From: Paenibacillus sp. FSL R5-0345
GTDB lineage: Bacteria > Bacillota > Bacilli > Paenibacillales > Paenibacillaceae
Assembly: GCF_000758585.1 (NCBI RefSeq)
Contig: NZ_CP009281.1
Location: 6,696,001 to 6,760,000 of the forward strand
DNA length: 64,000 nt
Direction of reading: 5' to 3'
In this document: piece by piece, positions 7,037-38,361 of the stretch
How the letters are laid out: every line of letters starts with the position of its first letter
Position numbering within the stretch: position 1 is the stretch's first letter
Notes under the pieces: model-generated
The model's database searches: none
Seen by the model: the letters and a program-made list of their open reading frames with translations, nothing else
What the model was told of the DNA's origin: nothing
Program-made: the position numbers and the translations under genes

Positions 7037-8305
7037 ATGAGCCTGTTCAAAAAGCCCATAAATGCGGAACTCATCGATTACATGGATCATGTAGACGACT
7101 CTATTGTTCTAGAGAAGATTGCTCCCCTTTACAAAGATGGCGGTCGTCCGCCCATTGATCCCAGAGTCTGCTTTCGGATGCATTATCTGTACTTTACTCG
7201 TCCAGAAATTTCTTCGTTTCGAGAGCTGGAGAGACAACTTATTGACGCAATTTTATTGGTGTTCCCAGCCCGACAAAAGTGCCGGTTCACAGCTCCCTGA
7301 GCCACTTTCGCTCAAAAGTTAGTGCCGAGTTGTTCTATGCCATTCTTTTCGACATCATCGCCCAAGCCTTGAAGCTAAAGGACTTTCTATCGCCCATGTT
7401 AACGGGCATCGATTCCAGGCCGATATGGGCCAACGTCAACGGATGCAAGCACAAACGCTGTTCTTACCCGGACCAGAGCACCTGCTCTTGCGAGAAAACG
7501 TATTCTGATCCCGATGCCACCATTGGCGTGCAGCGCAATAAAGTCAACCAAAACAAATTCTTTATCGGTTACCGTTAAACATTCTATCGTCTGTCCAAGC
7601 CCTAAAGGACCCGTTGTTCTATTCTCCATCGTTCTTCCTAACGAAACGGCCGATGTGAAGGTGATGCTGCCGCTCATCGACATGATGAAAAAAATCGAAG
7701 GGTTGCAGGTGGAGTATCTGGTAGCCGACTTGGGTTACTTCGACTCCGACGATCAGAAGGAATCCCTCCTGACCCACGATGTGGCAGCCGTCACTGGGTT
7801 CAAAACCAATACAAAGATTCCCGAACACTGTTCACCCAAAGGAACGCCGGAATGTGAACAAGGACATGTCCTGATGTTCGACGGATTCGATAAAGAGGAT
7901 TATACCGCCTGGTTCCCCGCAGCGGAGGAGAAATGTGCCGCCTGCCCGTTGCAAGGAAAATGCCAGAAGCAATGGGGCGATTCCTTTCTGGACAATCCGT
8001 TTTTCCACGGTCCCGTCCCACAAGGTAGCGCCCTGCAAGAACACATGATGGGCTTTCGCAAGCAAGTGGAGCTAGCGTTCGCCCAAGAATTCAACCCACT
8101 GACTTCGGTCATGAAGCACAAGAAGGTGCCGGTTCGAACAACCGAGCGTGTGGAGAAGTGGTTCATCTTGCGGGATGCCTTCCGATTGGTGGAGCGGATG
8201 ATAGCTCACGTTCGTCAGACCGTTCTTCCCGTACAGCATGTAGCCGCTATGAAGAAGCTACAAGAGATCCAAGTCGAGCAAATCTCACTGCCTTTGGCTG
8301 GGTAA
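7037..8305 (+). pseudogene. IS1182-type DDE transposase, frameshifted
   Basis: Three frames make one transposase. The first runs from SLFKKPINAELIDYMDHVDD to about 7240, with the family motif GGRPPIDPRVCFRMHYLYF. A second frame from about 7255 to 7570 holds LTGIDSRPIWANVNGCKHKR. The third, 7570-8305, holds the catalytic-core stretch YLVADLGYFDSDDQKES, a cysteine cluster (CAACPLQGKC) and the C-terminal RTTERVEKWF region. The second break is an extra T after GYR at about 7578. The protein cannot be made intact, so the copy is presumably immobile unless served in trans. Confidence 0.8.
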
Positions 8306-9995: not shown

Positions 9996-10233
9996 GGTCT
10001 CGTAATACTTATTTTGCCGTCATTTATGGAGACCTTGCTACCGAACGTATTAAGCATTCTAAGACGAAGGAATACTTTTATGAGGTGATGAGCTTATATG
10101 CAATTGGATATTTTTCTCTCTGTGCAGTAGTAATTTCAGACCTTGTGTAAAAACTGAAAGACTAAGTAGAACCTATAATCTTCATGCTGTAAATACAGGA
10201 TCCTACAAGCTTTTCTTCAAAAAACTTGCCCCT
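9996..10233. other. Spacer with a membrane-protein-like gene fragment next to the repeat
   Basis: A plus-strand frame without a start codon runs from the exporter's end to a stop at 10148-10150. It contains TYFAVIYGDLATERIKHSK and a hydrophobic end. It looks like a truncated membrane-protein gene. Also here, GCCGTCATTTATG (10018-10030) repeats the sequence next to the rlmH stop codon (40332-40344). Confidence 0.35.
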
Positions 10234-10249
10234 ATTTATGATACGGTTC
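10234..10249 (-). repeat. Left attachment site (att) of the SCC-like element
   Basis: ATTTATGATACGGTTC is identical to 40338-40353 at the rlmH end and in the same orientation. On the minus strand it reads GGT GAA CCG TAT CAT AAA TAG, that is GEPYHK-stop, the last six codons of RlmH. The core TATCATAA is the same as in staphylococcal SCC att sites. Confidence 0.85.
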
Positions 10250-10270
10250 ACCTTACACGCTATAATGGCT

Positions 10271-13791: not shown

Positions 13792-14063
13792 ATACCGTTC
13801 CTCCAATTTCTCTTAGATTCAGTTTCCCACAAGCCATTTGGAATGTCATCCATTGTGTGCTCTGAGTACGCACTACCACCCGCAGAATCCCATTTGCTGC
13901 CCGTTCCCTCTTTTGACCTGCATTTAGTGTCAGTGCTGTAAGAAGTGACCGCAACAGCCTAAAGGGAACTTTTGAACCAAGTGACGCATTTTTAGGCAGA
14001 CAGTTGATTACTGTCACCCGAACAGTCAAATTGCAATAGAGATGCTTCTGCTTTATCTGGACA
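13792..14063. other. Non-coding spacer
   Basis: No convincing gene. The left part may hold the promoter of the 343-aa protein gene. The right part begins a sequence (14031-14050, AAATTGCAATAGAGATGCTT) that is repeated near the recombinase end at 16853-16872. Confidence 0.5.
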
Positions 14064-14099
14064 GCAAAAGACCCTTCTGCATGGGTCACAGAAAGGGCC
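14064..14099 (-). terminator. Terminator of the GTPase operon, sharing sequence with the one at 16902-16936
   Basis: Minus strand GGCCCTTTCTG pairs with CAGAAGGGTC across a TGACCCATG loop and is followed by TTTTGC. The hairpin and flanks match those of the recombinase gene end almost base for base. Confidence 0.7.
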
Positions 14100-14453: not shown

Positions 14454-16688
14454 TTATTCTTGTTTACTTTCCTCTTGTTTACTTTCCTCTTCTTTAATTT
14501 GTACCAGTGACTCTTCAACGATAGCTTTTAATTCATCTAGGAAATCCCCTGATACATTATCATAAGTTATTTTGGGTTGTGGTATAGTTCTTTCAAAAAT
14601 ACTCCGGATCTCACTTGCCCTATTAGCCGCTGATCCTGTGCCCTTATAATAAGAATGAGCGACAATCCACTGAGAGTGCAAATCCACTTTGAGACGTCTT
14701 TCAACAAGTTGATTTATCTTGTCGGACGTATTCTCAGATAACCGCTGAAGTACACTTTGCTTTTTGTCATCAGGAGCCGGAATAGACCATCCTTTTGGAA
14801 CACTTAGAAATTCGTTTAGTCGTTGCATTAAATACCCCGCTAAATCACTTGCAGGTTTTAGGTCACTGTACTCTGTAGTTTTAGACCAATTTGCAACACG
14901 ATTGGATAAAGCTTTTATTCGCGTCCAGTGCTGTTTAGGAAATTGTGAGTTTCTTAACCCTAATAAACCAAGCCACTTTTGCATGAATAAATCTTCCGTT
15001 TCAGTTATTGCGATAACCAACCGTCCAAAGTCATACTGTGGTATAGGAATAAGTCCGTTTGGAAGTAGCGAGGCCGCCTTATCAGCTTTCATTGCTACTG
15101 ACTCTATAAAACTTTCCATTTCGGTAATCAGCTCATCTGACGGGTTTTTCAACTCTTGAGTATTTGGAAAAAAGTAAGCGTTTCTTTCTAAGTGATCCCT
15201 CAGTTGGCGGATCATCTTAGGATTTAGATTGTAGGCCTCTTGCATTGCTTCTATAGCTCCTGTTTGAATACCTAAGACGTGGTCACGACGATCATCGTCA
15301 TCAATCATATTCGACCCTTGTACTTGATCAAAGCGAGTATATACAACCATTAGCTTATCCTGCTGACCGCGAGAAGAAGCTTCCCTTAAAATCACCTTAG
15401 GAATATCAAGCATCGGCTGAGTTGCATTGTCAACAAGAATTACAGCATCAATTTCTTTGAATTTGTTTGTAACATCCATAGGAATACTTGTTGTAATATT
15501 AGAGTCATGTCCTATACCTTCCCCATCAACTAACACTAGTCGAGGGGGAATATCTGCTTCCCACCAGCTTGGTTTAAATGGCCCTTGAAGGCGGACACCA
15601 TTCACAACTGGAGCGAGTAACTGACCGAACCTTCTTCCTTCATTTCCTGCAAACCATCTCATCATATTTACTACTTCAGTCTTATCTTCTGACTCATGAT
15701 ACCAGAATACGGGCCACCCACGAGTATCACGATGCATTTGCCCTGTTCGAATTAATTCAAATCGCGACTTAATAATCTTTAATATATAATGGACAAGTTC
15801 GTTAAATCGTTCTGTGTCTTCTCTTATCCACGTTTCGTAAAGCAGGTCAATAGCTTCATCGACATTATCTTCATCCGGTGTAAATTCATCACGAGCTTCA
15901 GCTGCAAGGACTTTAACCTCATTTATGATGTAATTAATATCTGTTTGAAGGGATAGTTGATCTGGATACGGAGTATCTAATTCTTGATCCAATTGTTTAG
16001 TAATGCTAGTTTGTTTACCTGAGGAACGATACTGACCAAGCAGATAGCTTAAACGAAAGCGCTGTTCAGGATGAGACAATAAGGCCTTTGCAATAGTCTT
16101 TTCATCCTCACCAATCACCGCTCTTCTAAAGGCTTCCCAAACACATTCCTCTATAAGTTTTATGGCCTGAGCTTGGGAAATAAATGTAACAACTCCACTC
16201 CAGTCACCTTCACGAAAAACGTATTCCGTATTACATGTTGTCGTACGACTTGATGAGATAGCGGGAAAGCTGATTTCATCTGGTTCTGTACCAATCATTT
16301 GTCGGATTACTGTTGTTTTACCTGCTCCAGTTGTGCCCAGGAACATTACCCGTGCATATCCATCATCTTTGGATGGAAGTTCAATCTTCTCATTACGAAG
16401 CTCCCAAGGGTCTCTTATTAAATCCTCCTCCATTTGATCATAAAATATGTCAACAGCCTTACCGTGGAAAATCATTTTCGCTTGTTGTTGCTCATTTAAA
16501 GACCAGTAATTCTCATCAGCAAGTATGCGTTTTAAATCATCCACAATTCTTTGGGCGTCTTCTTGATCAGTACCGAGACCTCGTCTGATTTTTCTACCCT
16601 GTTTGCCTTCACGATCTTTTAATACTGGATGCCTAAATTCAACGGCCCAGCTATTCACTCCACCCTTTGTTAAACGTGCTGAATACAT
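14454..16688 (-). CDS. Large P-loop GTPase/ATPase-like protein with an integrase-arm-like N-terminus
   Basis: This 744-aa protein starts with about 60 residues (SWAVEFRHPVLKDREGKQG with KIRRGLGTDQEDAQ) that resemble the AP2-like arm-binding domain of tyrosine integrases. A P-loop follows, GTTGAGKT (residues 118-125). SSSRTTT at about 145 could be a switch I threonine. LVLVDGEGIGHD is a Walker B/G3-like site, and VVYTRFDQ a G4-like [NT]KxD variant. The C-terminal third is helical and ends with a repeated KQEESKQE. It resembles dynamin/septin-type large GTPases in layout but matches no named family. Its own strong promoter carries an operator-like repeat. As cassette cargo a DNA-sensing or defence role is possible, but this is inference. 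Confidence 0.65.
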   Translation of the reverse strand: MYSARLTKGGVNSWAVEFRHPVLKDREGKQGRKIRRGLGTDQEDAQRIVDDLKRILADENYWSLNEQQQAKMIFHGKAVDIFYDQMEEDLIRDPWELRNEKIELPSKDDGYARVMFLGTTGAGKTTVIRQMIGTEPDEISFPAISSSRTTTCNTEYVFREGDWSGVVTFISQAQAIKLIEECVWEAFRRAVIGEDEKTIAKALLSHPEQRFRLSYLLGQYRSSGKQTSITKQLDQELDTPYPDQLSLQTDINYIINEVKVLAAEARDEFTPDEDNVDEAIDLLYETWIREDTERFNELVHYILKIIKSRFELIRTGQMHRDTRGWPVFWYHESEDKTEVVNMMRWFAGNEGRRFGQLLAPVVNGVRLQGPFKPSWWEADIPPRLVLVDGEGIGHDSNITTSIPMDVTNKFKEIDAVILVDNATQPMLDIPKVILREASSRGQQDKLMVVYTRFDQVQGSNMIDDDDRRDHVLGIQTGAIEAMQEAYNLNPKMIRQLRDHLERNAYFFPNTQELKNPSDELITEMESFIESVAMKADKAASLLPNGLIPIPQYDFGRLVIAITETEDLFMQKWLGLLGLRNSQFPKQHWTRIKALSNRVANWSKTTEYSDLKPASDLAGYLMQRLNEFLSVPKGWSIPAPDDKKQSVLQRLSENTSDKINQLVERRLKVDLHSQWIVAHSYYKGTGSAANRASEIRSIFERTIPQPKITYDNVSGDFLDELKAIVEESLVQIKEEESKQEESKQE

Positions 16689-16769: not shown

Positions 16770-16849
16770 GGGATATTTTTCCTCTGCACTTAATATCTAT
16801 TGAGAACGCAAATGATCCCTTAAGCCATACGTTACATTAGCTAAAAAAT

Positions 16850-18517
16850 TTAAATTGCAATAGAGATGCTTTGACCCTGGATCTCTCGCTTCATATGGAC
16901 AGCAAAAGACCCTTCTGCATGGGGCACAGAAGGGTCAGCGTTTAAAAAATGGTGTAGCGTATTCTCATCGAAGTTCATATCGATTTGGTCGATGGTTTTT
17001 GAATCCTTGATTGTAATCTGCTTGATGGCCAAATGCATTAGGGTCTTTCGTTGGTCAAAGGATGACGAGTCCAGCAGCTTATCAAACTTATTCAGAAGAG
17101 CGCGGACAACTTCGTAGGAGACAGGCTCAACATGGTCGTCTTTCATTTCAGCAGCCAGCCCTGCCTTTTTGACATGTAATCGTTCCAGTTCTCCACCAAT
17201 ATCATCAAGCCGCTTGGAGAACATCGTCTTATCTAAGCCGTTCATTTCGTACATGTCAAAGTACTTTCGCCGCTTCCCCTCCAGCTCTGTTATCTTAACC
17301 AGAATATGCTCAAGTTCCTGCTCGAGGGGTTTGACACGCTTCGTTTTCCTTTCATTAATGTTTTTCACGATGGCTTTGAGAATTTGGGGCTTTGCCAGTA
17401 CTTCTTTAAGCCGTTCGATTACATAATTCTCTGCCTCCAGCTTCCGAATGCTGTTGGCGCTGCATACCTTGCTCCCCTTGTTACGGAAGTTGCTGCAAGA
17501 GTAGTATAGACGCGTGACCTTACTGCCGTCCTTCTTACGATTCTGAGTCCGATTAGCTACCATCGGCGCTCCGCACTTTGGACAGCGGATCAGCCAAGTT
17601 AACAGGAACTCGCCATCGAAGCGCTTCAGGGAGACCACTGATTTTTTCTTGCGTAAATACTGCACTTTGCTCCATAGTTCTTCCGAAACAATAGCAGGAT
17701 GAATCCCATCAAAAGTCTCCAGTATGGTGTTAAGGCCCTTACGCCTTTTCTCACTCCAGTTTTCATACCTTCCATAACGTATTCTTCCAACAAAGAATGG
17801 ATTATCCAGAATCTCCTTCACACCGCTGATGGAGAAGGCTCCACCAGATCGGGTAACATAACCCTCATGGTTGAGTTCGTTCGCAATCGACTTAAATCCT
17901 CGTCCGGTAGCGAATCGTTCAAATATCTTGAGAATAATGACTTCTTCCTCAGGAACAATCTCTACTTTTGATTCCCGACTCCGAACGCCATTCACAATGT
18001 CCTCTACACTTCGATACCCTAGCGGTAGCTTACCATTGTGCTTCCCTGTCCTAGCACGTTGTTTGTGACCCATCTTAACATTGTCAACTATGGTATCACG
18101 TTCAAGCTGTCCTACAGCCCCCATGATATGCAACATGAATTTCCCGTGGGAGGTTGAGGTGTCGAACTGTTCTGTCATGGACATAAACGCGACGTTATTC
18201 TTATTCAGAATATTAACGATTTGTGAAAGATGCTCTGCATTTCTCGCCAATCTATTAAACTTCCACACCAAGACGGTATCGAATAAATTATTTTTTGCAT
18301 CCTGAAGCATCTGCTGCAGCTCAAAGCGGTTATCCATGCTCTTACCACTGATACCTCTATCCACGTACTCGCGGTAGATTTCATAGTTATAGAGCTTAGA
18401 GTAGTCTGTCAGCGTTTTAAGTTGTGCATCAATGGAATAACCATGCTCAGCTTGCTCCTCCGTGCTTACACGAACGTATATAGCAACACGACGCACCTTA
18501 TCCGAGGTCATTAACAT
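16850..18517 (-). CDS. Large serine recombinase, Ccr-like (second of the pair)
   Basis: This 555-aa site-specific recombinase, with its partner upstream, probably cuts and joins the att sites at rlmH. The resolvase domain starts at about residue 9 (VAIYVRVSTEEQ, with the catalytic Ser in RVST) and includes LVWKFNRLARN and the LERDTIVDNVK helix. The recombinase domain follows (about 165-290). A zinc ribbon (RCPKCGAPM with YYSCSN and CSANS) and a coiled coil come next. It lies 40 bp after the first recombinase gene, like ccrA-ccrB. The last 30 or so residues are encoded across an intrinsic terminator, which is odd. The start at 18517 has a GGGCGGG site 7 nt away. Confidence 0.9.
   Translation of the reverse strand: MLMTSDKVRRVAIYVRVSTEEQAEHGYSIDAQLKTLTDYSKLYNYEIYREYVDRGISGKSMDNRFELQQMLQDAKNNLFDTVLVWKFNRLARNAEHLSQIVNILNKNNVAFMSMTEQFDTSTSHGKFMLHIMGAVGQLERDTIVDNVKMGHKQRARTGKHNGKLPLGYRSVEDIVNGVRSRESKVEIVPEEEVIILKIFERFATGRGFKSIANELNHEGYVTRSGGAFSISGVKEILDNPFFVGRIRYGRYENWSEKRRKGLNTILETFDGIHPAIVSEELWSKVQYLRKKKSVVSLKRFDGEFLLTWLIRCPKCGAPMVANRTQNRKKDGSKVTRLYYSCSNFRNKGSKVCSANSIRKLEAENYVIERLKEVLAKPQILKAIVKNINERKTKRVKPLEQELEHILVKITELEGKRRKYFDMYEMNGLDKTMFSKRLDDIGGELERLHVKKAGLAAEMKDDHVEPVSYEVVRALLNKFDKLLDSSSFDQRKTLMHLAIKQITIKDSKTIDQIDMNFDENTLHHFLNADPSVPHAEGSFAVHMKREIQGQSISIAI
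16902..16936 (-). terminator. Intrinsic terminator lying inside the recombinase reading frame
   Basis: GACCCTTCTG pairs with CAGAAGGGTC (10 of 10) and is followed by TTTTGCTGT on the minus strand, about 50 bp before the stop codon at 16850. Confidence 0.65.
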
Positions 18518-18557
18518 AAGAGTGCCCGCCCTTGTTCTAGTATGAATCGGCCTTGAT

Positions 18558-20132
18558 TTAAACAGATTTGCTGTTGATTTTGCATTGTAATTCCTCCATG
18601 TTATTTGTAAATAGTATATGATTTAACGATGCACTCCCATGTAAAACAGCTTTTGATATATCTTTGTCAGGGGGGAGCGTGATTTTATCAAATAAGCTCT
18701 TAAACAGCTTTTTTTGCTGTTCATGCGGGGAGATTTGGACCATTGCCCACAAATTCTTCAATGCGGTAAGAATCTTATTACTATCTACCAATTGTATCTG
18801 TTGATTAGCTAGTTTTTCTTCAATACCTCGCAGGGCCTCTTGCTTAACAGCCTTCTGCTCTTCGAGTTCCTTAAGCCGCGTAACTAGAACCTCCTGAGGA
18901 ATATGCTCCTCTTCAAATAACTCAAAGCATCTCTGCTGCCGCTGATCAAATGCAGCCAACTCCTTAGTCAGACCTCTCTTTTCATCCTCAAGAGGTTTAC
19001 GGCTTAGATCCCGCTTATCATTCACTGCCGCGATGATTTGATTCAGCAAAGGGGGTTTAGTCACAAGTTCCTGCATTTGTTGAGAGAACCAGCAATCCAT
19101 GTTATCTGCGCGAATCGCATTTAGGCTACACGAAGCGGAGCCCTTACTCCTATAGAGTGAGCATACATAGTAGTAGTTCTTCCGAATTGTCCCGTTTTTG
19201 TTAAAGCTCTTCGTGTGTGCTGCAACCATGCTGCACCCGCACTCAGGACATTTGAGTAATCCTGACAATGGAAAATGCCGTTTGATCGTCTTCGATGTCA
19301 GGTTCGATCGACTGCGTAGATTAGCTTGGACTTGTTCCCATAATTCCAAAGTAATGATTGCTTCTTGTTCACCCTCTATCAGTTGTACCTCAGCCCCTGT
19401 ATGGCGCTGGCTTGTACCAATGCGTATTTTGCCGATGTAGTTGGGATTAGTCAGGATGCCTCTTACCGCCGCGATCCCAAAAGCCAGGCCTTTTTTGGTC
19501 AGACAGCCTGCAGCATTTAGTCGATTGGTGATTGCCTTGTACCCTAATCCATCTGCATACATGGTAAAAATAGTTCGGACCAGCTCAGCCTCAGGTTCCA
19601 CAATTTCAAGCTGTTGCTGTCCAGGGTCAGGATTCTTATGCCACCGGTAACCGAGCACCATATTCCCGCTATTCCAGCACCCCTGCCGATTGCGCTCTTG
19701 CACAGCTAAACGGACATTGTCACAAATCTGTTCCCGTTCTAACTCAGCAATAGCACTCAGCACCTGTACGACAAAGCTGCCCATCGTTGTATCGGTATTA
19801 ATATCTTCTGTCGCGCTCTTTATTCCGACATTGCTCTTATTAAAAATTTTTACCATTTGCAGCAAGTCACTATGGTTGCGTGAAAGCCGATTTAGCTTCC
19901 AGACTAAGACGTTTTGAAAACATCCCTGCTGCGCATCCACAAGTAACTGCTGCAAAAGGGGTCTGCCCTGAATCGACTTCGCTGATTTTCCTGCATCTAT
20001 ATAGGATTTGTATATCGTTAGATTGTGCTGTCGGCAGTATGCCTTTAGCATATCCATCTGACCATCTATGCTGTAACCATCCACCTGCTCATCTGTGGAG
20101 ACCCGAATGTAGAGGGCTACTGTTGATTCCAT
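18558..20132 (-). CDS. Large serine recombinase, Ccr-like (first of the pair)
   Basis: A 524-aa recombinase. The resolvase domain holds ALYIRVSTDEQVDGYSIDGQ (catalytic Ser about residue 13), LVWKLNRLSRN and the ELEREQICDNVR helix. The recombinase domain contains NPNYIGKIRIG. The zinc ribbon is KCPECGCSM with YYYVCS and CSLNAIRAD. A charged coiled-coil follows at about 385-450. It differs clearly from its neighbour, so the pair is two distinct subunits rather than a recent duplication, as with CcrA and CcrB. The start is firm (AGGAGGT 7 nt upstream). The gene is the sixth in a leftward core operon that begins at the primase. Confidence 0.9.
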   Translation of the reverse strand: MESTVALYIRVSTDEQVDGYSIDGQMDMLKAYCRQHNLTIYKSYIDAGKSAKSIQGRPLLQQLLVDAQQGCFQNVLVWKLNRLSRNHSDLLQMVKIFNKSNVGIKSATEDINTDTTMGSFVVQVLSAIAELEREQICDNVRLAVQERNRQGCWNSGNMVLGYRWHKNPDPGQQQLEIVEPEAELVRTIFTMYADGLGYKAITNRLNAAGCLTKKGLAFGIAAVRGILTNPNYIGKIRIGTSQRHTGAEVQLIEGEQEAIITLELWEQVQANLRSRSNLTSKTIKRHFPLSGLLKCPECGCSMVAAHTKSFNKNGTIRKNYYYVCSLYRSKGSASCSLNAIRADNMDCWFSQQMQELVTKPPLLNQIIAAVNDKRDLSRKPLEDEKRGLTKELAAFDQRQQRCFELFEEEHIPQEVLVTRLKELEEQKAVKQEALRGIEEKLANQQIQLVDSNKILTALKNLWAMVQISPHEQQKKLFKSLFDKITLPPDKDISKAVLHGSASLNHILFTNNMEELQCKINSKSV

Positions 20133-20150
20133 TAGGTTGACCTCCTATTC

Positions 20151-20372
20151 TCAGGCGACCATTTGGTAGTCTGCTGTCTCAAGAAGTTGTGAGGTCAGTT
20201 CATGGTTGGCCAGTTCTTCCATTTCCAGCAATTCAACTGGCTCCAGCCAGAGCATAACTTCTGCACGGTATGATGCCCTTTTCTCTTGCATGGAAATGTA
20301 GTTGATAACCATATCCGAGAGCAAATCAATAGCGGATTCAAATTCGTACTGTACATTAAAGCCGTCTTTCAT
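20151..20372 (-). CDS. Hypothetical 73-aa acidic protein upstream of the recombinases
   Basis: This small helical acidic protein begins MKDGFNVQYEFESAIDLLSD and ends with a glutamate-rich VELLEMEELANHEL stretch. No family is recognised. GGGGGAG 5 nt before the ATG at 20372 sets the start; the longer frame to 20399 has none. It is 18 bp before the first recombinase gene, so it may modulate recombination or simply be cotranscribed. Confidence 0.6.
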   Translation of the reverse strand: MKDGFNVQYEFESAIDLLSDMVINYISMQEKRASYRAEVMLWLEPVELLEMEELANHELTSQLLETADYQMVA

Positions 20373-20441
20373 AGCAGCTCCCCCTTTGAAGTATGTCATC
20401 GAAACAAGAGCCTACCGCCTTTATAAGCAGACTTGTTTACT

Positions 20442-20525
20442 CTATTTATGATTTCTGCTGCTTTTAATGATTTCGATAGTTATTTGAAGCGCTACGATAA
20501 TGAGATTAATAACCCTTGGATTCAT
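20442..20525 (-). CDS. 27-aa hydrophobic peptide
   Basis: This short ORF lies 13 bp after the DUF960 gene stop, with a GAGGG site 8 nt before its ATG. It encodes MNPRVINLIIVALQITIEII followed by KSSRNHK: one hydrophobic helix with a basic tail, like small membrane peptides. The tight operon position and ribosome site support it. Function is unknown. Confidence 0.5.
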   Translation of the reverse strand: MNPRVINLIIVALQITIEIIKSSRNHK

Positions 20526-20538
20526 CTGTCCCACCCTC

Positions 20539-20859
20539 TCAATATTCTGATGGCAAGAGCATCGTCACGTACTCGTCGCTATCAATTATCCACACGGTAA
20601 TGCCATGCAGAGGCTTATTAATGCCAGGATAACTATAGGTCTTTGTACGTTCCGGTTGCTCTTGAGAGTGGATGATCTTTTGAACCATATGACTTCCCTC
20701 GTTCTCAGTAGTCAAATCAAATACTTGAAGGTAGTCCATCTGTACGTTGCTTTGGATTTGTTCATCCAGTAACGCCCATAGAACCAGTTGCAGTTCAGGG
20801 TTGAGCTCATTATTTACGCCTCGCGTTACGTATCGTTGGGAATCAAATGTATAAGACAT
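20539..20859 (-). CDS. DUF960-family protein (SCC core gene)
   Basis: This 106-aa protein matches the DUF960 pattern known from staphylococcal SCC elements: [20 protein letters not shown], then [23 protein letters not shown] and a C-terminal [20 protein letters not shown]. The function of the family is not established; its constant place beside ccr genes suggests a role in excision or cassette replication. The start ATG immediately follows the RadC-like gene stop codon (TAGATG), so the two are translationally coupled. Confidence 0.8.
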
Positions 20860-21327
20860 CTACATCAATCCCCTTTCCTTCATGCTTGTAAATTGGATGC
20901 CTTCTCCAAGAATAAGGTGGTCAAGTAGATCGATGCCAAGCAGGCAGCCGCTATCCCGCAGTCGCTCTGTAATCTCAACGTCCTCAGGGCTGGGATCTGG
21001 CTGGCCTGATGGATGATTATGGCAGGCTATGATGGAAGCAGAGTTGGCAAGAATCGCAAGCTTGAACGTCTCCCTGGGATGGACAATAGAGGCATTCAGC
21101 GACCCGCAGGATACTTGATGCATAGCGGTGGGCTCATTTTTAGTGTTGAGGCAAAGGATACAGAATGTTTCCCTATCACAATCACCGATGAATTGGCGGA
21201 ACAAGTCAACTGCATCTTGAGGTGAACGAATCACACGATTAGGGTAGAGCAGCGATGTTTTTTCACGCACCATTCGTAGAGAAATAACCTCAATACGCTT
21301 AGCTGGTTTAGGCTTAGAGTTAATCAT
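20860..21327 (-). CDS. RadC-like JAB/MPN+ domain protein
   Basis: This 155-aa protein consists almost only of the JAB metalloprotein fold found at the C-terminus of RadC. The JAMM zinc motif is complete: ACHNHPSGQPDPSPED (HxHPSG-x-PSxxD) at about residues 102-117, with the upstream glutamate probably in the PRETFK region. The N-terminal helix-hairpin-helix of chromosomal RadC is absent. Such short forms are common in mobile elements including SCC; their role, perhaps in DNA processing, is unproven. It overlaps its upstream neighbour by 4 bp and abuts the DUF960 gene. Confidence 0.85.
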   Translation of the reverse strand: MINSKPKPAKRIEVISLRMVREKTSLLYPNRVIRSPQDAVDLFRQFIGDCDRETFCILCLNTKNEPTAMHQVSCGSLNASIVHPRETFKLAILANSASIIACHNHPSGQPDPSPEDVEITERLRDSGCLLGIDLLDHLILGEGIQFTSMKERGLM

Positions 21328-21746
21328 TCGAAGTCCTCCTTAGCCAGGCATCCAGATTGCTCCGCAAACCACTGTTCCAGTTCTAGCCTTAAAGCGCCCC
21401 TGAGCGCGTATATCAGCAGAAAACACTCGTTGTCGGGCATTAGGCAGGCTCGGTACATATAAACTCCATTTGGCAGTTCTACCAGTTCTACGTACTCTGG
21501 TTCATTCTCCAATAGATTCACAACAACATCGCCATCTGTTAGTGTGCAAGTATCTTCTGACTGGACAACCAACATGTAGTAGCCATGATCCACAAGTGAA
21601 AATTGATCTTCACCTTCATGATGTAAGGAAGCTTTTAATTCCTCAAGCTCACTTACAAGGTACGTCAGACCAACTTGAGACAGCGTACCTTTCTTGGAGT
21701 AACTCAAAATGGATTCTTGATTTGTAATGTTAAACAAATAGCTCAT
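21324..21746 (-). CDS. Hypothetical acidic SCC-core protein
   Basis: An acidic soluble protein of about 140 aa; no family is firmly recognised. The C-terminal half (EPEYVELVELPNGVYMYRAC and on) is distantly reminiscent of the SCC-encoded uracil-DNA-glycosylase inhibitor family (DUF950/SAUGI) in position and pattern, but the match is weak. The start is uncertain: the ATG at 21746 directly abuts AAGGGAG, a TTG at 21737 would have ideal spacing, and the frame is open up to 21869. The stop overlaps the RadC-like start by 4 bp (ATGA), which shows it is part of the operon. Confidence 0.6.
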   Translation of the reverse strand: MSYLFNITNQESILSYSKKGTLSQVGLTYLVSELEELKASLHHEGEDQFSLVDHGYYMLVVQSEDTCTLTDGDVVVNLLENEPEYVELVELPNGVYMYRACLMPDNECFLLIYALRGALRLELEQWFAEQSGCLAKEDFE

Positions 21747-22085
21747 CTCCCTTAGAATTTTCTCTAGTAAATACAGCATTCTAAGGAAATAATATATATT
21801 TACAGGTAACCTTTGTTCCGTTCTTCGATGCCCCCACACGTTGCCCCCCAGTTTAGGGACTCGCCCCAACTGGGGCGACGCAAAAACCTTGTTGGCTCAT
21901 GGTTCCGTTGGCACCTGCCCCCGTTCCCCCCTAACCTGACGTGGGAGAGAGACATTTTTTATTGGCAGGGGGGGACATTATTTATTTTTTATGTTTAGTT
22001 ATGTTTTTTTATAGGGGCAATGGGGGCTCCAATCACCGCAGTCCTTGTCCCGCTTGGAATTCCCAGCGCCCCCTCTCTTCGGCTT
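21747..22085. other. Structured non-coding stretch; candidate cassette replication origin
   Basis: Between the helicase gene and the acidic-protein gene lie a perfect hairpin (CGCCCC AACT GGGGCG, 21862-21877), a run of seven G (21968-21974), a roughly 40-nt almost pure A/T tract (21974-22013) and several GGGG/CCCC tracts. GCCCCC/GGGGGC arms continue into the end of the helicase gene (22089-22115). The layout resembles hairpin plus DNA-unwinding elements of small replicons. Function is inference. Confidence 0.4.
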
Positions 22086-24404
22086 TCAGGGGGCAATGCC
22101 CCCGTTTTCGGGGGCGAACACATCAGGCAGGTCCCCTCCAGGTTCCGATCGGCTTGGCTCGGGCCTAACTCGGGGTTGTACTTCTTCGTCATCCTTTCCC
22201 CGCAAAAGTTCAGCTTTTACGCAGAGCTTGCGGGAACGCTGACCTCCTACAGTCTTCTTGACGAGGTTGTGCCGACGCTCTTTGCCGTTTTCCTTCGAAG
22301 TCTCCGTGAGCGTGATGCCCTCTTCGGCCAACTGTTTCCACAAGGTTTGACTGGAAATTGGAAAATGAGTCCCTTGTGCCGAAAGGAATCGACTCACTGC
22401 ATTGTAGAGTACATCAGGTAGAAAGTAATAGTAGTTGCTATCGTGCCAGCCTACGTGAGTTCCACTCTTGGGAATGTCCCCTTCAGAAAGCGGTTTAGCG
22501 GCTTCCGTGTAGATCGTCCGATTAGCAAGAAGTTCGCCGACAATGCTCACAAAGCGTGTCGTTGCCTTAACCTCTGCCACCTGCTCTCCCTGCTCACTCG
22601 CCGTACTGACAAATCCTTCCCAAGCCTCGCGAAGAAGCTCATTTTTACGTCCGTGTTCGATCGCTCCAACACTTTCAGCGTAGTCTAAGCCAAGTTGGAG
22701 ACCAAGGTACAGCCAAGCCGCAGCCTCTACCAGCCTGCCGTGTACATGTAGTTGGGAAGCTTCATTTCTTCTTTCGTAGAAGATTTCCGTCAGCCTGTCG
22801 TCACTTTCTGACATGGCCTGTCCTAGCCATTCCAAGTAACCGACCATTGCTTGACTTAACATCTGAGCTTGCTGCTGGGCAGTAGTCAATTTATGGAGAT
22901 CAACATCACCTTGTCTGAGCTCGACGGGGAACAACCTAGCAACGCTTGAGCCACGGTCGAGAACATCCTCCGCTGTCACAATTGCCATGCCGCGAGGGGG
23001 GTAACCAGGCCGCAGGCTAGTGTCCTGTCTCATGCGCCCTCGTCCAACCCTGTCACCGTAAGCCCTAAGGATTTGCTCAGCTAGTTGCGACATGCCTTTC
23101 GCTTCCTTCAGCGCACTGGCCGGATGGTAATCATCGATCAGAAGTAGTGAGTCTTTCACATCGAACCCCCGTTTTTCAACCGAGTTTGCCGTATCCTTAA
23201 AGCTGGCCGGAGGACGCTCTAACAAGTCACCAAAATGGCAAAGGAACAACTTAGCAAGAGTCGTCTTACGAGTTCCCGTATAGCCGTGAAGCCACATAAG
23301 GAACTTTGGCTCCAGATGTACTGTTCTCAGCCATTCACACAGAGGGGAGAGAAACGTAAGTCCCAACAGTGGCAGCGTAACCCGATGGGGAGCGATGTCC
23401 AGTAACATTAGGCTTGCTTTCATGGCCTCTTTTCGATCACCTGATGAGGTAGGCAACCTGTAGTTTTCCAACCTCGGGTCGATCTCTACCTTAACGTCCT
23501 TTGCTCCTACAGCCCCAGCAGCATGAAGGTACCTTGGGACCCCATCCACCTCTACCCAGCCAAGATGGGCAAAAACACGCTCTGTGGTTGCCCCTGACGC
23601 TGTCGTCTGGATCGCGTGGCGGACCGTGTCCCTGACCTTGTTCCCAGGTTGAATGTTAGGCTCTGGTCCCCATTGCTCCAACCACTTCATGCTGTCGAAA
23701 TCACCCGATGCAACGTGTATGGGATGTAGTCGTTTTCTATTATTCATGAGAACTCCCTCCAGTTCGTAGAATCGCTGTTGTTCTGATCCATCATCCTTGA
23801 CGACGGTTTTGTTTATCCAGGCAAAAAAGTTAGCCAGTGGAATGTCATTGCGGTTGCCTTCCTTATCCGTTTGGACAACACAAAGGTTCTTACCTTCCAA
23901 TGAGTACCGACTTGGCAGAAGCGCTTCCTTTTCCTTTATGTGGTCGGGTAACGCGGCTGGCGCTTTTGATTTTGTGCCCGTTAGAAATGCGGCTGGGGAG
24001 TTGGTGATTTCCCCTGCCTCATTCTTACTCACTTGATCACCAAAGCATTGGTGCATCTGATCACCGCTACATCCCATAGTCTCACAGCGGGTAGGGCCAC
24101 GATCTGACTTAGTCATCTCTTGTATTCTTCGTTCGCTTTGCTGGGAGTGCTTGTGGGAAGCTCGCGAGAACTCTAACGCTTTATCCAGCAATCCCGTATT
24201 AGTAAATACCGCGCTCCAACGAAACCAAGTTTCTTCATCAAGCCCATGCTGTTGCTGCCTTTCCCAATCATCGGTAAAGCGGAGACAAGACTTTTTAAGG
24301 CCCTCGAACGACCCTCTCTCAGTTGGAACGGTTCTCTGTCCCCTTTTTGGAGGAGTTATTCGTTGAACCATCCATCTAGGGGCGTTTGGTAACTGAATTC
24401 CCAT
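22086..24404 (-). CDS. DUF927-type replicative helicase of the cassette
   Basis: This 772-aa protein has an uncharacterised N-terminal region with a Cys pair (CETMGCSGDQMHQCFG), then a DUF927-like helicase/ATPase domain from about residue 200. Walker A is GYTGTRKTT (about 400) and Walker B LLLIDDYHP (about 445), with a sensor-like stretch PRGMAIVTAEDVL. Such proteins are superfamily 3-type or self-loading helicases that replicate mobile elements; SCCs carry equivalents next to ccr. It overlaps the primase gene by about 49 bp, so the two are coupled and together form a split primase-helicase. The ATG at 24404 is chosen for GGAAGG upstream; 24425 and 24371 are alternatives. The C-terminal tail is Pro/Arg-rich. 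Confidence 0.82.
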   Translation of the reverse strand: MGIQLPNAPRWMVQRITPPKRGQRTVPTERGSFEGLKKSCLRFTDDWERQQQHGLDEETWFRWSAVFTNTGLLDKALEFSRASHKHSQQSERRIQEMTKSDRGPTRCETMGCSGDQMHQCFGDQVSKNEAGEITNSPAAFLTGTKSKAPAALPDHIKEKEALLPSRYSLEGKNLCVVQTDKEGNRNDIPLANFFAWINKTVVKDDGSEQQRFYELEGVLMNNRKRLHPIHVASGDFDSMKWLEQWGPEPNIQPGNKVRDTVRHAIQTTASGATTERVFAHLGWVEVDGVPRYLHAAGAVGAKDVKVEIDPRLENYRLPTSSGDRKEAMKASLMLLDIAPHRVTLPLLGLTFLSPLCEWLRTVHLEPKFLMWLHGYTGTRKTTLAKLFLCHFGDLLERPPASFKDTANSVEKRGFDVKDSLLLIDDYHPASALKEAKGMSQLAEQILRAYGDRVGRGRMRQDTSLRPGYPPRGMAIVTAEDVLDRGSSVARLFPVELRQGDVDLHKLTTAQQQAQMLSQAMVGYLEWLGQAMSESDDRLTEIFYERRNEASQLHVHGRLVEAAAWLYLGLQLGLDYAESVGAIEHGRKNELLREAWEGFVSTASEQGEQVAEVKATTRFVSIVGELLANRTIYTEAAKPLSEGDIPKSGTHVGWHDSNYYYFLPDVLYNAVSRFLSAQGTHFPISSQTLWKQLAEEGITLTETSKENGKERRHNLVKKTVGGQRSRKLCVKAELLRGKDDEEVQPRVRPEPSRSEPGGDLPDVFAPENGGIAP

Positions 24405-24943
24405 GGGCTTTTCCCTTCCTTCCATTCATAGATGCCGCCATTTGCGTGCTTGGATGGCGGGAGAACTGTCTGTTGACCGTCGCAGAGCAGCGCACATTCT
24501 TCATGTGGATTCTCCGGATGGCTCTCAGCATACTTGACTGATCGGACTCCAATGGGAGCAGCGTACATGAGCCGCCTACCGCCCCCTGGGGTGGTAAACT
24601 CAAGTGTATCGGGGAGATCACCTTTACTCCATTGCTGTAACAGTTCTTCTCCGTACTCCCCGTCCACGTCGATGGCGACGACACCTGTTCGAGTGCCGAG
24701 TACTAACCCAACATTCATGGAAGGCCATTGCCGCGCCCATTCGTCGATTGTATCGGGCTTTGGAATAGAAGCATTCGTCCAGTCTTTTAAGAGAGGCATC
24801 TTTCCAGGTCTTGTACAATTATTCCGGTGTTGTTCGCTCATACCGCTGTGATCGTGTGAACATAGCGGTATGATGGCCCAACCTAGCGCGGCGAAGGCCT
24901 TCATTGCTTCGGCCACGTTCTTATAGGGAAGATGATTAGACAT
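24356..24943 (-). CDS. Primase-polymerase (Prim-Pol, AEP-type) N-terminal-domain protein
   Basis: This 195-aa protein matches the bifunctional DNA primase/polymerase N-terminal domain. Catalytic acids are in GVVAIDVDGEYGEEL (DxD, about residue 90). TTPGGGRRLMYAAPIG is the following beta-hairpin and ALLCDGQQTVLPPSKHANGG holds the conserved His motif. It would lay down primers for cassette replication together with the helicase it precedes; in many elements both are one polypeptide. The ATG at 24943 follows AGGTGAT. The start overlaps the upstream gene end by 8 bp. Confidence 0.85.
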   Translation of the reverse strand: MSNHLPYKNVAEAMKAFAALGWAIIPLCSHDHSGMSEQHRNNCTRPGKMPLLKDWTNASIPKPDTIDEWARQWPSMNVGLVLGTRTGVVAIDVDGEYGEELLQQWSKGDLPDTLEFTTPGGGRRLMYAAPIGVRSVKYAESHPENPHEECALLCDGQQTVLPPSKHANGGIYEWKEGKSPWEFSYQTPLDGWFNE

Positions 24944-25645
24944 CCTTATCACCTACCCCGTCAAACTGAGAAGTAGTTAGCTCTTCGGCAAAACACATCA
25001 AGTCGTACCGTTTTGCATAGATTTTTTTCTGAATCTCATACTTATAAAAATTCTGCCTCTCATTCGCGCAGTCGTTTTCTATATAGAAATGACGCATGTT
25101 CTCACGCACCTTTACCTGATGTTTGATGTTATTTGTTGGGAACCAACCATGCAGTGTCAGCTCGATTGATTCGGTTGGGTCAACTGTAATGTTTCCTCTG
25201 AAATCTGCAAAAAGTGGAAGGTAAACAACGCCTTCTCTATCCCAACAAGCCGCAGAACCGTGTTTGTCCATCTGGAGCTGCGTTCGAAATGACCTTTCAG
25301 TTCGTCGAAGTTTCCGAAACTCTGTAGGCTCGCGTACTTCTTAAACAACCTCAGACAATCGTGGTTGGGTTCTACGCCGTGATCCTCACCGAACACATCT
25401 CCAAAACTGTCGCCATAGAAGTCCAATAACTGATAATATTGTTTCCACGACAGTTTAAGGGAGAAGCACGTACAGACGAAAATCTGTTCTCCCCCTTTTA
25501 CTAGGTCACGATTCAGATTATAGAAAGATATCTCGCTGTTCTGGTTTTTCAGAAGGGAATTGATGGCACGCTCAACCTTCTTGTGATTTCCAAAGTTCAA
25601 CATGACTTGCTGCAAAGAAGCTTTTGGTGTAATCTGCTGTAGCAT
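24936..25645 (-). pseudogene. Hypothetical cassette protein broken by one frameshift
   Basis: Two frames overlap. From the ATG at 25645 (GAGGAG 9 nt upstream) the protein starts MLQQITPKASLQQVMLNFGN and continues to the region of LQSFGNFDELKGHF. At about 25290 the better continuation lies in the -1 frame (RTQLQMDKHGSAACWDREG) and runs to 24936. A single-base loss after CATTT explains it; a programmed shift cannot be excluded but no slippery heptamer is seen. The joined product would be about 237 aa, with no family recognised. It is directly upstream of the primase gene. Confidence 0.55.
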
Positions 25646-25739: not shown

Positions 25740-26228
25740 CTACTTTTCGAGTGGGAATACGGCTATTACCGCGTCCTTATAGTTAAGGTAAGTGACTTCG
25801 TAGAACGTGATGCTTGTTCTCTCGCTGAAATCGAGGTCGAACAGCGACGTCAATTCTTTGACCAGCTCGGAAGAATAAACAACCGCTTTGGTTCCCGACT
25901 GTTTCAGCGTAAAGCAGGTCTCGTTATTTGGTAGCTTTGCGCCGACAGCAAATCCTTTCTCGTTTACACCGATCTGAATTTGTTCAGGGAACCCAATCTG
26001 TTCCATGACTTTGGCCGAAATCGTGAACCGCTTGCTATTTCCATCTGCATTCACGAGAGAGCAAACACCTGGCCTACCGTTTCCTTTACTTTCATGGGTT
26101 GCAGCTATGGGCTTAAAGTTGAGATCCTCGAAGGATTCTGTTTCCTGCCCTACACTCGCCACTTCTTCCGTATTAAGTTCTTCTGTTTCAAACTGTACCG
26201 TTACTGTTTCTTCTGCATGGTTTGTCAT
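25740..26228 (-). CDS. Hypothetical 162-aa acidic protein of the cassette core
   Basis: A soluble acidic protein beginning MTNHAEETVTVQFETEELNT. The first 45 residues are glutamate-rich and likely disordered, and a compact beta-rich domain follows (NGRPGVCSLVNADGNSKRFT). It could bind nucleic acid, as AbrB-like or ssDNA-binding proteins do, but no signature is decisive. The start follows GGGAGG by 9 nt. It is the first intact gene of the leftward run leading to the primase, so it may be the first gene of the replication operon. Confidence 0.55.
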   Translation of the reverse strand: MTNHAEETVTVQFETEELNTEEVASVGQETESFEDLNFKPIAATHESKGNGRPGVCSLVNADGNSKRFTISAKVMEQIGFPEQIQIGVNEKGFAVGAKLPNNETCFTLKQSGTKAVVYSSELVKELTSLFDLDFSERTSITFYEVTYLNYKDAVIAVFPLEK

Positions 26229-26321
26229 TTCGTGTTTCCTCCCAGAGTGAAAGTTTGTTGTTACTGCTTCTAACACTTACAAGTGTATCTAGTTCTACCT
26301 ATTTTCGCGTCCCAACCCGGT

Positions 26322-30988: not shown

Positions 30989-33109
30989 CTATAATTCCTT
31001 TTTTTTAGTATCCATCAAACCACAGAAATTTGAGAGGGAAAGTATCTTGGAACGATATTCAATAGGATAAAAGGAAAGATATTTGTTTGGCACAACTAAT
31101 GAAACGTTACTTAACTCCATATCTTCCAAGGTTTTAGCACTCATACCTTTTTCTAAAGTTACAATAAATAGCGGAGGTCCTTCAGGATTTAAGTAATCCC
31201 TCCAATTCTCTTTACATGTAACTAGCGAAAGTAAATTCACTTTTTCATTGTTATTACTTATGAATCTAAATCCACGTTTTTTCGAAGTCACTACTTGGAA
31301 TTCGTAATTCAATTTTGACTGCTTAAAGATAAAGTCTAAATGGAATTGAAATGTCAACTCAGTTCTCAGTTGTCTGGTTTGTGCAGCTGTGGAGGCAAAC
31401 TCTAATAATAACTCGAGATCATTGAATGGCTTTTGGAGCTTATCTTGATATATACTTTTCTCTAATGATTTAGTTATCATGTACTCAAGTTCAATTAACT
31501 CGAGAAGTAAAGCATCAACATTAGTATTATCAATCTCCATATCTACTAAAGAATTAGAATTGAAATACAAGTTCTGTGCCTTTTGTGAAATCTGTCGTGG
31601 AGTGAGCATTTTGTTTGATACTGAATTAACAAGACCTTCATTTAGCTTGTCAGACAAGCCCAAGTCACTTTTTTCAATATTATCAATTAACCCATAATTA
31701 CCAACATTTTCAGTTGGAGATATTGAAAATGTTTCTAGGAAAGAATCAGCATCTTTTCCTGATAGCACATAACCTAGATATTCATCACTATTAACCTTAA
31801 TAAAAATTAAAAGATCGCCTAAATAACTATCGGAAAATAAAGGGAATTTTTTTCCGAAACGAGTTATTCTATATTCACTTCTTGACTTTTTACCATACCA
31901 CTTAAACATACTATCACTGTGTAAATCTAATTGCTCCCAATAAATTCTCACAGCTCTCTCTTTATTCACTTCTTTTTCTCCCGGTTTATCAAACAAGATT
32001 GACCAAGAGTCTTTTGGAATATATATTCCTGATTGATGAGATCCGGTTTTCCCAATATCGTTTGCTGAAATAAACTTATAGAAAAATTGTCCATATTGCG
32101 ATGCCCTAGCAATTGCTTCATCTCTATTATTATCATAAAAATACTTACTTCTATTATAGCTATCTACAACTTTCTTTGCTTTTAAAGCTTTAATCATACA
32201 TTCTGCTATTTTTTCAACTACCGGTACAGCTACTGAATTACCAAACTGCTTGTACGCAGCTGCATCGGAAACTACAATACGATAGTTTTCAGGAAACCCT
32301 TGCAATCTAGCACACTCACGTGGGGTTAACCGTCTTGGATTCTGGCCCTTTTGTGGAATTAAAATTTCTGAACCATCTTTGTAATATCGTGCGGATAATG
32401 TTCGCGTTGAACTATTAAAATCAACTAGCCCATAACCAAAACCATTTCCTGCTTTTTGGTGTTTTTCAGCATAGCTCTGAAGATATTTCCACAAGTTATC
32501 AGTCAATGTGTACTTTTCATCGACTTGTTGTTCTAATATCGAACTAACTGGAGGGCCTTGTTCAGGAAGCGTAGGGAACTCGAATGCTATTGGATCTAAA
32601 AATCCAACTAAGTATATACGCTCTCGATGTTGGGGCACTAATCCCTTAGCATCAAGAATCGCATCATACACCTTATAACCCAGTTCCTTTTGCAGAACTC
32701 TCATAATCGTACGAAAGGTTTTATTATCATCATGAGACCTAAGGTTTTTTACATTTTCTAATAAAAAGGCTTTGGGCCTTTTAGCACGAATAATTCGAGC
32801 AATTTCGAAAAATAAAGTACCCTGTGTTTCATCTGCAAACCCATGGCTCCGACCTAAGGAATTCTTCTTAGAAACTCCAGCAAGACTGAAAGGTTGACAT
32901 GGGAAACCTGCTAAAAGAATATCATGGTCTGGAATTTGCTCAGAAGATACATCACGTATGTCACCTACTGGTCTATATCCAAAATTGGCTTCATAGGTCT
33001 CCTGTGCCTTTTGGTCCCACTCGGATGAGAATACACATTTACCACCCTGTTTTTCAAAGGCAATACGTATACCACCTATTCCAGCAAATAAATCTATAAA
33101 CTTAAACAT
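30989..33109 (-). CDS. C5 DNA methyltransferase fused to EcoRII-like N and C domains
   Basis: A 706-aa fusion. Residues 1-315 are a full cytosine-5 methyltransferase: motif [11 protein letters not shown], motif [10 protein letters not shown] (catalytic Cys near 71), [26 protein letters not shown] and GNSVAVP. Residues about 342-454 match the EcoRII-N effector domain ([18 protein letters not shown], then [13 protein letters not shown]). Residues about 519-699 match EcoRII-C. In the EcoRII-C part the PDFLFP site reads GFRFIS and AVKTTCK reads SLVTCK, so the catalytic Asp and Lys appear lost. ATG at 33109 follows AGAGGAAA. This part probably methylates and recognises DNA rather than cuts. It is divergent from the helicase operon; the recognition sequence is unknown. 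Confidence 0.85.
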
Positions 33110-33192
33110 TATAGTTTCCTCTTTACTATTATGAAGTAATCTTGCAGCATAATATTTTATTTTAACACCCAAACCACATGCGAACAAGCGTT

Positions 33193-33387
33193 TTATTCTT
33201 TTATCTTTTCTTTCCATTTAATTAAATCTTGAATAATTTCTGCAAGGTCTTTATGGAACGGATAATTCTCTGTTATTTTCTCAAACTGATCTTCATCGTA
33301 TTGATTCCAATCTGTATTTTTCCATGCCTTATTAAGCTCGGTCATACTATCAATACACCCGTCAATATTTTTTATAAATTTTTCCAA
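33193..33387 (-). CDS. 64-aa acidic protein upstream of the methyltransferase gene
   Basis: A small, charged, helical protein that starts with TTG at 33387, with AGAGGTG about 10 nt upstream. It ends 84 bp before the methyltransferase start on the same strand. The composition ([20 protein letters not shown]) is soluble. The family is unknown; a controller or inhibitor role would fit its place but is unproven. Confidence 0.45.
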
Positions 33388-33542
33388 CTAAAACACCTCT
33401 ATTCTTTGTATTCATTATGTATATAATATCACTCAAAACAAAAATGTGGTAAATGGAAGAAACAGGTGACGGAGCAGATGAAATGTATTATCCTATAACT
33501 GGTAGAAAATAAAAAATTCCTTTTATTAGGGCGGAAGCTAAA
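33388..33542. promoter_or_regulatory. Divergent promoter region of the restriction cluster
   Basis: About 155 bp separates the minus-strand 64-aa/methyltransferase unit from the plus-strand SNF2 operon. It is AT-rich; no controller-box repeat is clear by eye. Confidence 0.45.
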
Positions 33543-38316: not shown

Positions 38317-38361
38317 GTAGGTCGTTAATTATCACAGAAACTGGATGAAGGGGCTGATTGC

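Follow-up and report, generated by a model that had tools for sequence, protein, structure and literature searches.

The DNA analyzed here, referred to below as the window, is a stretch of 64,000 nt from the forward strand of Paenibacillus sp. FSL R5-0345 (assembly GCF_000758585.1, contig NZ_CP009281.1, positions 6,696,001–6,760,000). It contains a 30.1-kb cassette that occupies rlmH, the same target gene as that of the resistance cassette of methicillin-resistant Staphylococcus aureus (MRSA). The core of the cassette is one leftward run of minus-strand genes encoding a primase, a helicase, an acidic protein, a RadC-like protein, a DUF960 protein, the product of a small open reading frame (ORF), and two large serine recombinases. 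An initial reading made without database searches (the sequence-only reading) had described such a run of primase, helicase, RadC, DUF960, and two recombinase genes, and all of these ORFs were found on the minus strand at the positions it gave. The tight spacing it described was also confirmed: the ORFs of RadC and the acidic protein overlap by 4 nt (21324–21327), and the DUF960 gene abuts the RadC gene with no gap. The synteny search it had called for recovered the same gene order beside rlmH in relatives. The set and order of the core genes are beyond chance, recurring in relatives and lying beside rlmH wherever rlmH is on the stretch retrieved.

The cassette and its attachment sites at rlmH

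The target gene rlmH (40336–40815, minus strand) was identified with the PF02590 profile (191.6 bits), which has only one match across the 6.79-Mb genome. Its last codons, GAACCGTATCATAAATGA (40336–40353, minus strand), encode EPYHK and a stop codon and form the rlmH-side attachment site (att), located by a pattern match at the 3′ end of the gene. They reappear on the same strand as GAACCGTATCATAAATAG at 10232–10249, the distal att, which was placed by a pattern match and by the edge of homology to the cassette of a relative, G017. When up to three mismatches were allowed, the att pattern had one match in the 64 kb besides rlmH itself, against 0.04 expected, and a 35-nt direct repeat (10218–10252 and 40322–40356) of 80% identity surrounds the two sites. 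As in other rlmH cassettes, the insertion is at the 3′ end of rlmH and the flanking direct repeats contain the rlmH end.

Homology to the G017 cassette starts at 10222, beside the distal att, and the DNA outside this att resembles the sequence directly 3′ of rlmH in three other genomes (G066, G001, and G064). The att repeats, the homology edge, and the likeness of the outside sequence therefore set the size of the cassette at ~30.1 kb (10232–40353, from the distal att to the att at the rlmH 3′ end). The G017 cassette is 95.0% identical to that of the window over 11.3 kb, and rlmH with its flank is only 88.0% identical. Because the more similar segment starts beside att while rlmH itself is more divergent, horizontal transfer is indicated, and the cassette probably moved between species. 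In G580, which its kinship label assigns to another order, att is present at rlmH and again 30.5 kb away. Precise excision and re-insertion are predicted, with att-bounded differences between relatives as an indirect hint.

Two CcrB-like recombinases linked to rlmH

The recombinases encoded by recB (16850–18517, minus strand) and recA (18558–20132, minus strand) each contain Resolvase, Recombinase, and Zn-ribbon domains according to Pfam. With the NCBIfam models, recB scored 417 bits for CcrB, and recA scored 303 bits for CcrB, 276 bits for CcrC, and 113 bits for CcrA. A staphylococcal cassette chromosome (SCC) in the strict sense carries orthologues of CcrA and CcrB, or CcrC; the CcrB scores obtained here are below the equivalog cut-off of 900 bits, nine staphylococcus-like genomes score 1067–1157 bits, and the two proteins fall on separate branches of a recombinase tree. 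This tree was of the quick kind and contained 72 rows (L139–L147, L069, L071–L073, L075, L047, and L049 were left out); it carried long-branch warnings for CcrA-like2, CcrB-like2, and several single rows, and its root was weak (66). The two proteins were placed in two starred clades of 11 rows; Paenibacillus, Cohnella, Sporomusa, and G580 are represented in each, and staphylococcal CcrA, CcrB, and CcrC occupied starred branches of their own, with weak deep forks. Judged from these scores and this tree, recA and recB are two old CcrB-like paralogues and not a CcrA and CcrB pair, and the SCC-type pair proposed in the sequence-only reading was not upheld, since recA is not orthologous to CcrA. 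The two look co-inherited and distinct from CcrA and CcrB. The cassette does carry Ccr-family large serine recombinases, as expected of rlmH cassettes, in that both proteins are in CcrB-like clades, yet below the 900-bit cut-off.

Among the tblastn records listed for recB, the best phage record showed 31.3% identity (199 bits) and the best plasmid record, from Staphylococcus aureus, 42.6% identity (362 bits), which supports the assignment of the recombinases as CcrB-like and closer to staphylococcal than to phage recombinases. A grouping with phage integrases of unrelated targets, which the sequence-only reading had named as evidence against an SCC-type core, was not seen in this search; the phage comparison is based on tblastn because the tree contained no phage rows.

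Linkage to rlmH was then counted in a sample of the class, from which the window's own genus (G000, G009, and G068) was excluded. In this sample, 31 genomes carry a CcrB-like gene of 305–497 bits; G653, at 301.7 bits, was left out. The best gene of each genome lies within 30 kb of rlmH in 23 of the 31 and on another contig in five; if a second CcrB-like gene of G480, 154 bp from rlmH, is included, the count becomes 24. Within the genus, a recB homologue is present in 16 of 100 genomes; it is on the rlmH contig within ~22 kb in 12 and on another contig in four. The flanking repeats and the linkage in both genus and class bear out the initial proposal that rlmH is the integration target.

Primase, helicase, and a candidate replication origin

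The primase gene (24356–24952, minus strand) encodes an archaeo-eukaryotic primase (AEP)-type Prim-Pol protein, recognized by PF09250 (102 bits) and by a PHROGs DNA primase family; the ORF can start at GTG 24952, and 24943 is an internal ATG. The helicase gene (22086–24404, minus strand) was tentatively assigned by fold and remote similarity to the type of SCC Cch and of Rep from SaPIbov1, a Staphylococcus aureus pathogenicity island (SaPI). Its ORF opens at 24425, its start is likely ATG 24404, after a Shine–Dalgarno (SD)-like stretch, and it overlaps the primase gene by 49 nt. The protein encoded at 22086–24425 had no Pfam match at E ≤ 1, and DUF927 was seen only as a sub-threshold match of one relative (E = 0.005). 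With a structure model of low confidence (mean predicted local distance difference test (pLDDT) score 56.5), the sole Foldseek match below 0.001 was SaPIbov1 Rep (E = 3.5e-7). Re-alignment of this weak model with VIA-align gave Z 10.5 and a root-mean-square deviation of 12.2 over 395 residues for SCCmec Cch, and Z 9.0 and 12.8 over 402 residues for SaPIbov1 Rep. A sequence-profile search of the PDB with the helicase returned nothing meaningful, and hhalign comparisons with two D5-type helicases gave E values of 0.2 and 0.58. Of the initial label of a DUF927 helicase, the helicase part is consistent with the predicted likeness to Rep and Cch, and DUF927 lacks Pfam support; as applied here, the label depends on predicted fold and remote similarity only.

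Primase and helicase form one polypeptide in most relatives. A family search gave matches in 10 of 295 genomes, including the window's own, and in all nine others the helicase lies in a frame of 917–1073 aa, with a stop inside the matched stretch in G045. The 10 long frames that were checked align to both the primase and the helicase reading frames of the window. Among 17 named relatives from public genomes, the two proteins share one frame in 12 and are split in none; five have no primase match. In G580, the proteins are split as in the window, with a primase of 185 aa, a helicase of 784 aa that is 66% identical to that of the window, an overlap of 13 nt, and an SD-like AAAGGAGG before the helicase ATG. 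The G580 and window helicases have the N-terminal pattern MG...P.AP.WM in common, and the linker of the fused forms is missing from both. The split, with its N-terminus and missing linker, recurs in a genome of another order and is therefore inherited; the earlier statement that primase and helicase, often fused, are split here was right. A recent frameshift as the cause was rejected in view of G580. Programmed frameshifting was considered as well, and inspection by eye, a weak test, found no slippery heptamer common to the window and G580.

The split also bears on whether the cassette could be a stranded relic, once mobile, that lost its movement and replication and whose primase-helicase gene a frameshift disrupted. 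Such a history would fit the long helicase frames of the nine other family genomes, the duplicated recB end in the cassette, and the apparently broken helicase of G017. Against these stand the split in G580, with its conserved helicase N-terminus, SD-like stretch, and 13-nt overlap, reading frames that stay open across the domains of both halves, and two full-length recombinases with no internal stop, and we consider a relic decidedly unlikely.

The non-coding DNA directly behind the helicase gene contains 10 runs of at least five G or C in 400 bp, against a mean of 0.23, and all windows of the 64 kb with at least six such runs fall behind this gene. The runs were counted in 15 loci, of which 13 were long enough (the window and 12 relatives) and two too short. 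They are enriched in the window and eight relatives (4 to 11 runs, a count reached by one to three windows per locus), and the four distant relatives have none behind the helicase. At 21917–22027, two inverted 15-nt G/C boxes (21917–21931, minus; 22013–22027, plus) surround an A-rich tract. The box pair is clear in six of the 13 loci (the window, G580, NEAU-GSW1, G011, G087, and G025), which have the layout GCCCCC.TTGCCCC, A-rich stretch, CCC..CTG.C, and GGGGG.A..GGGGGC, a distance between boxes of 85–101 nt, and two or fewer mismatches per box. The outer boxes are inverted copies of each other and, with one mismatch allowed, have no further match in the window (0.1 expected). Around the core, no other convincing repeats were seen. 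The box pair and its A-rich tract, together ~110 bp, are a candidate origin, and because they recur in six cassettes from two orders, the idea of self-replication is testable with a small plasmid. SaPI origins and the Cch2 site are also described as lying just downstream of the helicase gene (PMC7581432).

The G017 cassette lacks the boxes and encodes a D5_N-type helicase instead, and its homology to the window ends near 21500 and 27305. By this comparison, an otherwise 95%-identical cassette has a swapped replication module, which suggests that initiator and origin were exchanged as one block. A third helicase-like protein occupies the same slot in G072 and G068 (E = 0.09 against Cch in hhalign). 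G017 also has another cassette copy, located on the 5′ side of its rlmH (L042:9161–15077), with a recB that is 94% identical and a recA that is cut.

From the target gene, the att repeats, the protein families, the shared split, the boxes in six cassettes, and the module swap, we infer, with a probability of roughly 0.7, an autonomous SCC-like cassette of Paenibacillus that is mobilized at rlmH by its recombinase pair and replicates once circular. The recombinase pair would insert the cassette into, and excise it from, the last rlmH codons, and the inserted DNA would supply the rlmH end (EPYHK and stop), so that the host gene stays intact. After circularization, the Cch/SaPIbov1-Rep-like helicase would bind the paired G/C boxes behind its own gene and melt the intervening A-rich stretch; synthesis would be started by the AEP primase, which the overlapping gene upstream encodes. 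The two proteins would be made separately, with translation re-initiating at an ATG within the primase gene. Whether SCCs replicate after excision is an open question, and a cassette that appears to have its own primase, helicase, and candidate origin makes the question testable. Replication of the cassette after excision, the idea raised in the sequence-only reading, thus stays a proposal, to which a candidate origin has been added.

Instead of amplifying the circle, the primase-helicase might complete the second strand of DNA that competence or conjugation has brought in single-stranded, an alternative named in PMC10061031. A primase would be needed for that too, and no conjugation gene was recognized among the ORFs scanned, which cover part of the cassette; an origin-like element behind the helicase, however, would be superfluous for priming on any single strand, and this role appears doubtful. 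The pairing of an AEP primase with a Rep-like helicase, described for SaPIs in PMC7581432, and the match of the primase to phage families would also suit the remnant of an ordinary prophage or phage satellite with an integrase that targets rlmH by coincidence. This we consider highly improbable, as none of the phage records listed is as close to recB as a staphylococcal recombinase, and no structural phage gene was recognized in the six window ORFs scanned against PHROGs.

Several observations weigh against an autonomous, replicating cassette. The box pair is unrecognizable in seven of the 13 loci with the same helicase type; three of these (G054, G045, and Cohnella) have G/C runs only, and the four distant ones have neither. 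The helicase structure model is weak, an unrelated relaxosome protein falls between Cch and Rep in its re-alignment (Z 9.3, C-terminal winged-helix part), and the hhalign comparison with staphylococcal Cch gave E = 0.0055 with a probability of 6.7%. In G017, a frame change in the ATPase region seems to interrupt the D5_N-type helicase (L041:1438–2948); this may be a sequencing error, and if the helicase is broken as it appears, such cassettes would decay. Genome-wide, the att pattern with up to three mismatches has 15 matches, compared with 11 for the reversed pattern, and just three have two or fewer mismatches. The CcrB-like gene is far from rlmH in three of the 31 genomes of the class sample. 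Finally, a histidine is expected in motif II of the primase, and the sequence here is TPGGGRR, without it; the aligned relatives share TPG.G.R. Conservation of this histidine is relaxed in PrimPol-PV1 (PMC5862659).

In a staphylococcus-like SCC that served as a control (L276), a DUF927 helicase, CcrA, CcrB, SAUGI, DUF960, DUF1643, and RadC are encoded in that order, and in the four ccr loci examined DUF960 was present in all and RadC in one. The sequence-only reading had held that the set and order of the genes mirror the SCC. The set, a putative Cch-type helicase, DUF960, RadC, and a recombinase pair, is also found in L276; the order differs because RadC and DUF960 are upstream of the recombinases here and downstream in L276. 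Compared with staphylococcal SCC pattern 1 (LP1413, Cch with DUF927, CcrAB), the cassette has the same rlmH target, the att core TATCATAA, and a recombinase pair, and a single locus holds DUF960, RadC, and a helicase that is probably of the Cch type. Pattern 1 differs in that no AEP primase was identified there, CcrA is a separate lineage, the small genes are downstream of ccr, and SAUGI and DUF1643 are present; neither was recognized in the window cassette, where the four ORFs behind recB had no such match.

Pattern 2 SCCs (CCPol, MP, Cch2, CcrC), for which a PolA-type primase and a putative Cch2-bound origin next to the Cch2 gene have been published (Bebel 2020, PMC7581432), likewise have a primase-polymerase and helicase operon beside ccr; the polymerase there is of the A family and the helicase of the Primase_Cterm/D5 type, whereas the window encodes an AEP primase and an apparently Cch-type helicase. 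SCC-like islands with PolA-SSB primases (SSB, single-stranded DNA-binding protein) are also inserted at rlmH in Bacillota, including Paenibacillus pinistramenti, with a helicase that adjoins large serine recombinases and with composite islands that have several att (PMC10061031). They combine an A-family polymerase with SSB, and in the window cassette an AEP Prim-Pol occupies that place. Like SaPIbov1-type replicons, the window cassette has an AEP primase beside a putative Rep-like helicase of apparently similar fold, with the box pair as a candidate origin directly downstream of the helicase gene; it differs in using a Ccr-like pair for site-specific recombination at rlmH, and no phage packaging genes were found in the scanned part. 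The Enterococcus cassette chromosome, for which circle formation and transfer were shown, has a ccrAB-like pair in rlmH and a TATCATAA att; fewer than five att per genome are given, and the word primase is absent from the text (PMC6222049). Cassettes in rlmH with Ccr-like recombinases are thus already published from outside staphylococci, including Enterococcus, Bacillus, Paenibacillus, and others (PMC6222049, PMC10061031, PMC10581047), as are composite rlmH islands (PMC10061031). What appears new is that an rlmH cassette combines an AEP primase with a helicase of probable Cch type and with a candidate origin; no report of this combination was found in the open-access literature.

Attachment-site arrays and accessory genes

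The survey for further att copies covered up to 20 kb downstream of rlmH in 53 of the genus's 100 genomes, all of them from outside the 16 with a recB homologue. Of these 53, 48 were picked for the large distance of rlmH from a contig end and five as near relatives; the other 31 genomes were outside the survey. Further att copies were found in 46 of the 53, with 127 on the rlmH strand and one on the opposite strand, compared with 0 and 1 for the reversed pattern, and their median spacing is 3.1 kb (L135, L128, L130, L252, and L248 are examples of such directional arrays). A recombinase-like ORF was present in just eight of the 53 regions, mostly as fragments. Between the close relatives G057 and G078, the differences comprise two cassettes of 2038 and 1611 bp and a further one of 304 bp, and the breakpoints fall at att. 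Since a CCT variant is retained by the downstream cassette, the exchange point is at or before GAACC, in line with the central GA described for SCC sites (PMC10581047). Six pairs of whole cassettes, up to 99.1% identical, are common to different genomes; two of the six are from the G057 and G078 pair. In the open-access literature, no report of dense att arrays in Paenibacillus was found.

If four or fewer mismatches were allowed, 129 further att copies were obtained, with seven opposite-strand matches at that threshold, and 88 of the 129 still encode EPYHK and a stop codon. Their changes are 173 synonymous to 87 other, against 8:46 by chance, which fits cassettes taking turns as the rlmH end; this is only a lead because the sites were selected by pattern and recognition by the recombinase also constrains them. 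We tentatively propose, at not quite even odds, that the rlmH end in Paenibacillus is an integron-like platform on which serine recombinases operate, with mostly recombinase-less cassettes, arrayed in one direction, that are gained and lost at att carrying the last rlmH codons. Self-replicating cassettes, that of the window among them, would visit as drivers and mobilize the remaining ones in trans. Judging by the arrays, rlmH may serve in Paenibacillus as a general platform for cassettes, of which SCCmec would be a clinical cousin.

A weak additional att-like copy is present at 3017–3051 of the window (69% over 35 nt) and is possibly an older array edge. Far from rlmH, six att-like sites on one strand form another cluster in G000 (G000:C1:4011089–4025636; L271, L272), the last of which is behind a piece of the rlmH 3′ end. 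Pieces of the rlmH 3′ end of ~65–110 bp were also observed elsewhere in G097, G007, G060, G070, and G064.

The remaining core genes, all on the minus strand, are a small ORF of 82 aa (20151–20399) that is recognized in some relatives, the DUF960 gene (20539–20859; PF06124, 84.4 bits), the gene for a RadC-like JAB-domain protein (20860–21327; PF04002, 136.7 bits), and the gene for the acidic protein (21324–21746; 140 aa, pI 4.2), which probably starts at ATG 21746 rather than at 21869. Between helicase and RadC, the acidic protein is present in many relatives; it has a confident predicted fold (pLDDT 86), and Foldseek gave no PDB match at E ≤ 0.001. A SAUGI-like inhibitor was considered and set aside, as there was no notable Pfam match and no PDB fold at that threshold, although a protein of this kind may also go unmatched; a part as DNA mimic would be guesswork. 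What RadC, DUF960, and the acidic protein do in the cassette we can only infer. An ORF of 178 aa (25740–26276, minus strand) has homologues upstream of the primase in many relatives.

Behind recB is a cargo gene for a P-loop, weakly GTPase-like protein (14454–16688, minus strand). The recB 3′ end is duplicated (14021–14096 and 16845–16934) around the 2.8-kb unit that holds this gene, and the second G017 cassette (L042) lacks the unit at the same place. Beside rlmH, a cargo block (30989–38862) identified by PADLOC matches encodes a DrmMII-like C5 DNA methyltransferase, an SNF2 helicase, a small restriction endonuclease-like protein, an MzaB-like ATPase, an HNH protein, and one ORF product without a match, and these are probable defence genes. 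Finally, a transposase-like gene remnant, which we take to be IS1182-like, lies beside the distal att at 7040–8305.

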